Assembly: GCA_963205185.1 (NCBI GenBank)
Contig: CAUJHZ010000076.1
Coordinates: forward strand, 143,157-207,156
DNA length: 64,000 bases
From: Planctomycetota bacterium
GTDB lineage: Bacteria; Planctomycetota; Phycisphaerae; Phycisphaerales; UBA5793
Direction of reading: 5' to 3'
In this document: in pieces, positions 2,470 to 5,124 of the stretch
How the letters are laid out: the number at the start of each line of letters is the position of its first letter
Numbering within the stretch: the first letter of the stretch is position 1
Program-made: the position numbers and the translations under genes
Notes under the pieces: generated by a model
Seen by the model: the letters and a program-made list of their open reading frames with translations, nothing else
What the model was told of the DNA's origin: nothing
The model's database searches: none

Positions 2470-2656
2470 GCGACGGACATGATGATGTCCATGCCCAGCC
2501 CGGGCGCGGGATTCGAATCCTGCGGCTGGTTGGGCGTCGCTCGCTGATCGACCGCTTCCCACCATTGCCGCGAAGATTCGAGTTCCCCGTCCGGGCCTGC
2601 ACCGGACCGCGTTGTGCTTTTGCATCCAGCACTCCCGAACCAAGGGGAATCGAATC
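2470..2656 (+). promoter_or_regulatory. Structured 5' leader with ribosome-site-sequestering helix (riboswitch-like candidate)
   Basis: Two folded domains fill the leader before the cystathionine lyase gene. Domain 1 is a three-way junction: GCGAC 2470-2474 pairs with GTCGC 2536-2540; the hairpin GGACAT-GATG-ATGTCC lies at 2475-2490; a long arm follows, made of GCCCAGCC 2493-2500 against GGCT 2524-2527 and GGGC 2532-2535, topped by GCGGGAT/ATCCTGC (2506-2512/2517-2523). Domain 2 is closed by a 13-bp helix between 2575-2588 and 2644-2656 with one bulged G (2582), covering the GGGGAA ribosome site and ending just before AUG 2657. It encloses the hairpins GTCCGG/CCGGAC (2589-2607) and GTGCT/AGCAC (2614-2632). 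I do not recognise it as SAM-I, SAM-II or SAH class. Confidence 0.55.
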
Positions 2657-3838
2657 ATGTCGTACCGCTTTGACACTCTGGCAATCCACGCCGGCCAGCC
2701 CAACGACGCCTTGACCGGCGCCGTCGTGACACCCATCTACCAGACCACCACCTACGCCCAGCATCAACTGGGCGGGCAGCCGGACTACTGCTACTCGCGC
2801 ACGGGCAATCCCGGGCGCACCGCTCTCGAGTCAAGCCTGGCCGCTCTCGAAGGCGCGCGATACGGGCTCGCGTTCGCCAGCGGGCTCGCGGCCGTCAACG
2901 CCCTGCTGCAGACCCTCAGCGCCGGCGACCACGTCGTGGCCTCTCAGGATCTCTACGGCGGGTGCTACCGCATCTTTACCAAGATCTTTTCGCGCTTCGG
3001 CATCACGTTCTCTCTCATCGACACGACAGATGTTCGCAACGTCGAGCGGGCGATCACGAAGGCGACGAGGCTGCTCTGGCTCGAGACGCCGTCCAATCCG
3101 CTGCTGCGGATCACCGACATCGAGGCGTGCTGCGCCGTCGCGCGGCAGCGCGGCATCCGCAGCGTCGTGGACAACACGTTTGCCACGCCGGTTCATCAGC
3201 GCCCGCTGCAACTCGGCGCCGACATCGTCCTGCATTCCACGACGAAATACATCGGCGGTCACTGCGACGTGCTCGGCGGCGCGCTGGTAACCAGCGATGA
3301 GGAGACATTTTCCGAACTGAAGTTCGTGCAAAACGCGACGGGCGCCGTCCCGGGGCCGCAGGACTGCTTTCTGCTGCTGCGCGGCATCAAGACCCTCTCG
3401 CTGCGCGTGCGACAGCATGCCGAGAACGCCCAGCGCATTGCCGAGCACCTCGAAGCGCACCCGGAGGTGCGGCGCGTCATCTACCCCGGGTTGGCCAGTC
3501 ATCCTCAGCACGAACTCGCCAGGCGCCAGGCCGCCGGTTTCGGCGCCGTCGTCAGCGTCGAATTCGAAGGCGGTATCGAGCGGGTACGGTCGCTCATCGG
3601 GCAGCTGCGGCTCTGGCCGCTGGCCGAGAGCCTCGGAGGCGTCAAGTCGCTGTTGTGCCACCCGGCGACGATGACTCACGCCGCCGTCGAACCCGCCGAG
3701 CGCCGGCGCATCGGCATCGGCGACGGGCTCGTGCGGCTCTCCGTGGGCATCGAGGATGTGGAAGATCTCATCGAAGATCTCAATGCGGCCCTGGAGCAGT
3801 CGGCCGGCGCCAAGCGCCAGCAGGAGGTGCCGGCATGA
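2657..3838 (+). CDS. Cystathionine gamma-synthase/lyase-type PLP enzyme (Cys/Met metabolism family)
   Basis: The 393-residue protein belongs to the fold-type I, PLP-dependent trans-sulfuration family. It opens with the typical DTLAIHAGQ and has the PLP-binding lysine in STTKYIGGH (about residue 196) and the conserved C-terminal SLGGVKSLLCHPATMTHA segment. Cystathionine gamma-synthase, gamma-lyase, beta-lyase and O-acylhomoserine sulfhydrylase cannot be told apart by eye. The start is ATG 2657, preceded by AAGGGGAA at 2642-2649; the open frame runs further upstream, but only through the structured leader. Its stop overlaps the start of the homoserine dehydrogenase gene (ATGA), so the two are translationally coupled, linking homoserine supply to methionine or cysteine synthesis. 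Confidence 0.92.
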   Translation: MSYRFDTLAIHAGQPNDALTGAVVTPIYQTTTYAQHQLGGQPDYCYSRTGNPGRTALESSLAALEGARYGLAFASGLAAVNALLQTLSAGDHVVASQDLYGGCYRIFTKIFSRFGITFSLIDTTDVRNVERAITKATRLLWLETPSNPLLRITDIEACCAVARQRGIRSVVDNTFATPVHQRPLQLGADIVLHSTTKYIGGHCDVLGGALVTSDEETFSELKFVQNATGAVPGPQDCFLLLRGIKTLSLRVRQHAENAQRIAEHLEAHPEVRRVIYPGLASHPQHELARRQAAGFGAVVSVEFEGGIERVRSLIGQLRLWPLAESLGGVKSLLCHPATMTHAAVEPAERRRIGIGDGLVRLSVGIEDVEDLIEDLNAALEQSAGAKRQQEVPA

Positions 3839-5124
3839 TCCGCCTGCTCGACACTCCTGCTTCCTCAAAGTCGACCGGCCGCGTCGCCATACTCGGGTGC
3901 GGCAACGTCGGCTCAGAAGTGGTGCGACAACTTCGGTCGCTGGCTTCGATCCGAGTCGTTTCTGTGCTCGTGCGCGATCTCGCGCGCGAGCGCTGTGCGC
4001 CCCACGGCGTGTTGACGGATTCGTTTGATGAAGTCCTCGCGAGCCGGCCCGATGTCATCATCGAACTGCTCGGCGGCGTCGAACCGGCCCGCACGCACAT
4101 CGCGGCGGCCCTGCGGCGCGGCATCCCGGTCGTCACCGCGAACAAGTCAGTCATCGCACGGCATGGCGAGGAGCTGCAACGCATCACACGCGGGCGAAGC
4201 GTTCCGTTGCGTTGCGAAGCCGCGGTCGGCGCCGCCGTGCCGGTGCTCGCCGCGCTCGACCAGTTGCGCGGCGACCAGGTAACCGCGATTCGCGGCATCG
4301 TCAATGGCACGTGCAACTTCATCCTCGAGCGCATCGAAGCGACGCGCTGCCCGCTGTCCGAGGCGCTGGCGCAAGCCCAGCGTCTCGGCTACGCCGAACC
4401 GGACCCGTCGGCGGACATCACTGGCCGCGACAGCGCTGAAAAACTCTGCGTACTGGCGAACCGGGCCGGATGGGGCTGGCCGCGCATCGATGAAGTGCAC
4501 GCCACCGGAATCGAATCGATCACGGCCGAGGATGTGCAATGGGCGCGGCGACAGCAGTGCGTCATTCGACTCCTCGCCGAAGCCCAGCGCGATGCCGACG
4601 GGCGCGTCTTGCTGCGCGTCGGGCCGACGCTGGTGCCGCGCCATCACCCGCTGGCGGCGGCGCGGGGATGCGAGAACGCGTTTGAGATTGTCGCGGAGCA
4701 CGCCGGAACCATTCGCCTGCACGGCCCTGGCGCCGGGGCCAGGCCGACTGCCACCGCCGTGATCAGCGATCTGATCGCAATCGTGCCCGCGCGGCGCAGC
4801 GCGGCGGCGCGCGAAGCGACATCGACAGCCGCTGAGCCGCGGGAAGAAGTTCCCGCGATGCGAAGGCACTACATCCGCGTCACAGCCCCGGGCGGCGCCT
4901 GTTCGCCTGAGCGGGTGTTCGCGGCGCTGAGCCATCATCGAATCGAAGCGGACGCGACCGAACTTGTGGATCAGCGCGCTGTCATTCACACGCTGCCGAT
5001 CAGCGGCGATCGCGCGCTGGCGCTGGCGCGCCACCTCGTGGATGACGAACTGCAACACTGCCTCGTGGCGCCCTATGTGGAGCCGGACGAGCGCCCGGGC
5101 AGCCGATGGAGGACTCCTTCATAG
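3835..5124 (+). CDS. hom: Homoserine dehydrogenase with ACT domain
   Basis: This 429-residue cytosolic enzyme reduces aspartate semialdehyde to homoserine, the branch point to Thr and Met. The NAD(P)-binding motif GCGNVGSEV is at about residues 21-29, the catalytic region has GIVNGTCNFIL (about 154) and GYAEPDPSADITGRDS (about 185), and residues about 342-410 form an ACT-like domain expected to bind a feedback amino acid. The start ATG 3835 overlaps the preceding stop as ATGA; the open frame extends 60 codons upstream but only as an out-of-phase reading of the lyase gene. The last 52 bases overlap the 3' end of the convergent glycosyltransferase gene. Confidence 0.94.
   Translation: MIRLLDTPASSKSTGRVAILGCGNVGSEVVRQLRSLASIRVVSVLVRDLARERCAPHGVLTDSFDEVLASRPDVIIELLGGVEPARTHIAAALRRGIPVVTANKSVIARHGEELQRITRGRSVPLRCEAAVGAAVPVLAALDQLRGDQVTAIRGIVNGTCNFILERIEATRCPLSEALAQAQRLGYAEPDPSADITGRDSAEKLCVLANRAGWGWPRIDEVHATGIESITAEDVQWARRQQCVIRLLAEAQRDADGRVLLRVGPTLVPRHHPLAAARGCENAFEIVAEHAGTIRLHGPGAGARPTATAVISDLIAIVPARRSAAAREATSTAAEPREEVPAMRRHYIRVTAPGGACSPERVFAALSHHRIEADATELVDQRAVIHTLPISGDRALALARHLVDDELQHCLVAPYVEPDERPGSRWRTPS

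Follow-up and report, generated by a model that had tools for sequence, protein, structure and literature searches.

A probable methionine-reading attenuator upstream of a transsulfuration and homoserine operon in a planctomycete

Bacteria regulate their methionine genes through SAM riboswitches, T-boxes and protein repressors, and, to our knowledge, attenuation by methionine codons in a leader peptide is nearly unrecorded. In the 64-kb window analysed here (the whole stretch of DNA from an uncultured planctomycete of Phycisphaerales type, along which all positions are counted), a strongly folded leader precedes the gene for an enzyme of the cystathionine gamma-synthase/lyase type and a homoserine dehydrogenase gene, which raises the question of what the leader senses. 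The original prediction took it for a riboswitch-like leader, with SAM, SAH, methionine or threonine as plausible ligands. Comparison with homologous leaders speaks against a ligand-binding riboswitch, which is most likely the wrong reading. We assign a probability of about 0.82 to a different reading, in which the leader works as an attenuator of the trp kind, its methionine codons being read by a ribosome whose position decides whether translation of the synthase/lyase-type gene and homoserine dehydrogenase is initiated.

The operon downstream of the leader

The two genes are as follows.
2657–3838, + strand, cystathionine gamma-synthase/lyase-type PLP enzyme of 393 amino acids; best NCBIfam match NF005871 (cystathionine gamma-synthase)
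3835–5124, + strand, homoserine dehydrogenase; NCBIfam NF004976, 319.5 bits against a cut-off of 205

The first product scores 511.1 bits against NF005871, just below the cut-off of 513, and gamma-lyase models are also close. Its stop codon overlaps the homoserine dehydrogenase ATG in ATGA at 3835–3838, an arrangement that suggests translational coupling of the two genes. In a tree of 74 homologues, all 20 genes preceded by the leader fall into one clade (support 100/99); homoserine dehydrogenase comes next at 16 of these 20 loci and at none of the 54 others (within a flank of about 1.5 kb). The homoserine acyltransferase MetX (TIGR01392) was not found in genomes G000, G003 and G032, the window's own genome included, although in these a synthase-type gene and homoserine dehydrogenase make up an operon, and MetA (PF04204) was not found in these three or in G001, G002, G004, G750, G887 and G916. 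How an enzyme of the synthase/lyase type serves methionine synthesis, with an acyl or a phosphate donor, is therefore uncertain; the route might use phosphohomoserine.

A conserved methionine-rich leader ORF

Upstream of the operon, the following elements were located.
2413–2440, + strand, putative sigma-70-type promoter from a scan; −35 element TTGACG at 2413–2418, spacer of 16, −10 element TATCCT at 2435–2440
2449–2547, + strand, leader ORF, MVDRLHIATDMMMSMPSPGAGFESCGWLGVAR and stop; open, with its frame conserved in homologous leaders
2479–2493, + strand, control codons ATG ATG ATG TCC ATG (MMMSM); M-x-M-x-x-P is invariant in 23 leaders

In the scan, 0.2 promoters of this kind are expected in shuffled sequence. 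The leader ATG at 2449 lies 8 nt past the end of the −10 element at 2440, and 12 homologous leaders have the same promoter arrangement, with 8–11 nt between −10 element and ATG; because this spacing holds across them, the ORF is probably nearly leaderless. Such a promoter combined with a near-leaderless ORF occurs only here within the 64-kb window. A start site downstream of 2540 had been named beforehand as an argument against a regulatory leader; the promoter instead lies upstream of 2540.

The 23 homologous leaders come from related genomes and extend to a second family of the same class. Among those of the closest homologous genes (94–76% protein identity), the best-conserved stretch is coding, and M-x-M-x-x-P stands in frame in 23/23 leaders, at a fixed distance directly before an RNA strand described below as strand A. 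Between the leader start and the next RNA element, 67 ATGs are in frame; the two remaining frames hold 5 and 0, and the mis-set frame of leader L078 can explain some of these. Distant relatives have different peptides that are equally methionine-rich. Examples of leader peptides, each running to its stop codon, are given here.
L072, MKLRTANLMSLMAMTMPSPGAGPRSCVWAGGWRS
L073, MRRTRTITQAMPMAMPGPDGGFPDGGRAVSAR
L074, MSLRFANLMDMPMSMSSPGTGVNLRVRLGRSG
L080, ending in MQMPMHMRSGMGALMPMRSPIAVA
L107, from another family of the class, MQYGRQNNLTLTMAMRRPGTGRKILCRGSRVA
L109, from another family of the class, ending in HLSMIMPSPSTGVYDLCAGFRGA

Matching peptides from other families within the phylum were inspected and dismissed as chance. 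Record WYBR01000130.1 (L070), titled Vicinamibacteraceae bacterium PLA1, carries a leader of the window's genus, and its name looks misassigned.

The original prediction overlooked this ORF and read its interior, 2470–2540, as the three-way junction of an aptamer. The 6-bp P1 helix of that junction (GCGACG/CGTCGC, around 2470–2475/2535–2540) is present, as is its hairpin GGACAT/ATGTCC (2475–2490), although the latter is largely a by-product of the tandem ATG codons and is absent from relatives. A likeness of GGATTCGAATCC to a tRNA T-arm was also discarded, ARAGORN finding only tRNA-Gly (gcc) at 306–378; that tRNA gene is closely followed by a gene for a ClC-type chloride channel.

Co-evolution of three RNA strands

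The leader RNA contains one hairpin and three strands with alternative partners.
2493–2535, + strand, self-hairpin of strand A with the ORF end, GCCCAGCC ... GCGGGA-loop-TCCTGC ... GGTTGGGC; about −34 kcal/mol in the window
2498–2519, + strand, strand A, the codons after the methionine run; 2498–2506 pairs with 2588–2596 and 2508–2519 with 2575–2586 of strand B
2575–2596, + strand, strand B, the blocking strand, whose partner is A or C
2644–2656, + strand, strand C, the Shine-Dalgarno region of the first gene, whose partner is B

The region 2440–2680 (241 nt) folds with a stability z-score of −3.3, and 2 of 200 shuffles are as good. The 13-bp helix predicted between 2575–2588 (GATTCGAGTTCCCC) and 2644–2656 (GGGGAATCGAATC), with one bulged G, is present and runs up to the base preceding the ATG at 2657. 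A repeat of GATTCGA (2510–2516 and 2575–2581) is likewise there, and had been taken to mean that 2510–2516 competes for the ribosome site. A competing fold does exist, but its main partner is the blocking strand, in a longer, covarying pairing that joins 2498–2519 to 2575–2596; for A:C no covariation is seen. The self-hairpin of A is folded in 17/18 leaders, at −27 to −41 kcal/mol, with covariation that exceeds shuffles.

In a partner-swap test, strands were reassigned between leaders and the true pairing was scored against the reassignments. For 8 representatives, the true assignment is the best of all 40,320 for A:B and for B:C, and A:C is unremarkable (p 0.26). For 12 representatives, the optimum over all possible A:B assignments is the true one, with 0 of 1,000,000 permutations as good; the same number, 0 of 1,000,000, applies to B:C, and the A:C control gives no sign of co-evolution (15% of permutations as good). 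In L077 and L078 the B:C helix is weak. Across 11 distinct rows, 97% of cells in the outer A:B helix are paired, both sides change at 3 of 9 pairs, and the covariation score is higher than in 500 of 500 shuffles. Representative A/B strand pairs are GCCCGGACG/CGTCCGGGC (L075), GCCCGATCG/CGATCGGGC (L080), GCCCGGTCG/CGACCGGGC (L078) and GCCCGAGT/GCTTGGGC (L109). Covariation in homologous leaders, the test named beforehand, is thus found as A:B and B:C partner swapping, and it bears out the prediction on this point: the leader is a conserved cis-regulatory element in which the ribosome site is hidden and a rival fold exists.

Proposed mechanism

Switching was examined by constrained folding, read out first as the mean unpaired probability of the Shine-Dalgarno region and then by counting how many A:B and B:C pairs are expected. 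B:C forms in 17/18 leaders (at least 8 expected pairs) once the leader ORF is occupied; with a ribosome placed on the methionine codons, A:B displaces B:C in most leaders, and the helices do not flip in L006, L073 and L108. Mean Shine-Dalgarno opening at equilibrium shows no clear difference between the states, C finding other partners, and for this reason the release of the ribosome site is a step that we infer.

In the proposed scheme, the transcript would start at the AUG at 2449 or a few bases away, and a short methionine-rich peptide would be made. When methionine is ample, the ribosome would clear the M-x-M codons, and strand A, at first covered, would later fold on itself, leaving B to pair with C and hide the ribosome site of the synthase/lyase gene (the putative off state). 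A shortage of charged elongator tRNA-Met would make the ribosome stall on the methionine codons and cover the 5′ arm of the A hairpin, so that A would pair with B and C would be released (the putative on state). Homoserine dehydrogenase would follow the first gene through the ATGA overlap. Charged tRNA-Met, as a measure of methionine supply read by the ribosome, is a more likely signal than a bound ligand.

Alternative explanations

The same leader peptide and strands could instead lead to premature termination of transcription, for example by Rho, rather than to blocked translation initiation. Classical amino-acid attenuators end transcription, and untranslated RNA downstream could recruit Rho; however, a scan of 2380–2720 gave no terminator-like site, and B matches the Shine-Dalgarno region exactly and the swap test shows the two co-evolving, which makes termination improbable.

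A second alternative is nascent-chain arrest, in which a metabolite, SAM or another, halts the ribosome while it makes the leader peptide and the same RNA strands relay the signal. The invariance of M-x-M-x-x-P is compatible with such a peptide, and the plant cystathionine gamma-synthase, an enzyme of the same type, is controlled in this manner. Yet M-x-M-x-x-P is the only invariant part of the peptide: the residues after the methionine codons vary (SPGAG, GPDGG, SSPGTG, RSPIAVA and RRPGTG), and the nucleotides preserve the helices while residues change, third codon positions included. SCGWLGVAR resembles the arrest region of plant MTO1, but this likeness fails in other genera, the shared CxxLGVA occurring only in the window's genus. 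We regard arrest as quite improbable.

A new class of riboswitch, in which SAM, SAH, methionine or threonine is bound and the ORF is incidental, is very improbable despite the strongly conserved letters (ATGCCCAGCCCGGGCGCGGG), the strong fold and the helices that compete at the ribosome site, given that in-frame methionine codons and the frame itself are kept in 23 leaders, that every conserved letter belongs to a codon or a pairing strand, with loops free to vary and no conserved unpaired binding core independent of coding, and that Rfam searches of the leader, at gathering and at permissive thresholds, gave no family and only chance matches to microRNA models. Because the methionine codons and pairing strands account for the conserved letters, no aptamer is needed. 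An overlooked short ORF can thus let a strongly folded leader pass for an aptamer.

Searches for SAM-I riboswitches (RF00162) gave no match in the genome of the window, in 4 others of its genus or, with stricter filters, in 15 further leader-bearing genomes. In relatives that lack the methionine leader, a second cystathionine-synthase-type gene is immediately preceded by a sub-threshold SAM-I match of 27–39 bits, at these positions.
G005:C1:2670777-2670885, SAM-I-like match, locus L120
G006:C19:306525-306635, SAM-I-like match, locus L122
G015:C1:1456367-1456477, SAM-I-like match, locus L121
G043:C1:523431-523535, SAM-I-like match, locus L124

This distribution hints that one control may have been exchanged for the other. 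We lean towards a broader view, in which the leaders form an undescribed, anciently inherited family of nearly leaderless, methionine-reading translational attenuators that replace SAM riboswitches for the transsulfuration/homoserine operon in part of one class; in its extreme form, the peptide would also sense SAM by nascent-chain arrest, as in plants. A conserved, covarying family of this kind suggests that the ribosome can read methionine supply although every peptide starts with methionine, and the leader offers a regulator that can be tested in a phylum where few RNA switches have been studied.

Comparison with known systems

Ribosome-mediated attenuators are recognized by a translated-looking upstream short ORF with regulatory codons and by mutually exclusive, covarying RNA strands, and translational ones by a covarying helix over the ribosome site of the gene. 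The leader has the ORF and the strands, and the B:C swap test supplies the helix; as far as sequence can show, it would work like other ribosome-mediated attenuators. With trp-, his- and leu-type attenuators it shares a short leader ORF containing codons for the product amino acid and, in the proposed scheme, a choice among mutually exclusive RNA strands by ribosome position, but here the codons are for methionine and the last helix lies over the ribosome site. In contrast to transcriptional attenuators, no intrinsic terminator was found in the scanned region, and the putative off state is Shine-Dalgarno pairing. As in ermC-type translational attenuators, a ribosome on the leader peptide would free a hidden Shine-Dalgarno site, although the signal here would be amino-acid supply through methionine codons rather than a drug. 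SAM-I riboswitches are likewise RNA control of methionine genes and match nothing in the window or in the 20 leader-bearing genomes examined for them.

In the open-access literature, the one earlier record of methionine-codon attenuation that we found is a weak candidate from Streptomyces, and a description elsewhere is possible. This candidate metL leader of Streptomyces lividans, before metNIQ, resembles ours as a leaderless peptide with several methionines upstream of a methionine gene and in having no clear terminator; it differs in its transporter operon and unrelated peptide and, as far as we could see, comes with no comparative RNA analysis (PMC8079986). A 2005 survey of Actinobacteria reported methionine operons to lack conserved RNA structures upstream (PMC1262725). 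The LEU element that it describes before leuA has, as here, a leader peptide with a codon run beside RNA able to cover the Shine-Dalgarno box, but it reads leucine, and there the run of codons is what pairs with the ribosome site (PMC1262725). From known attenuators, the leader differs in the amino acid that it would read, in its target and in its lineage.
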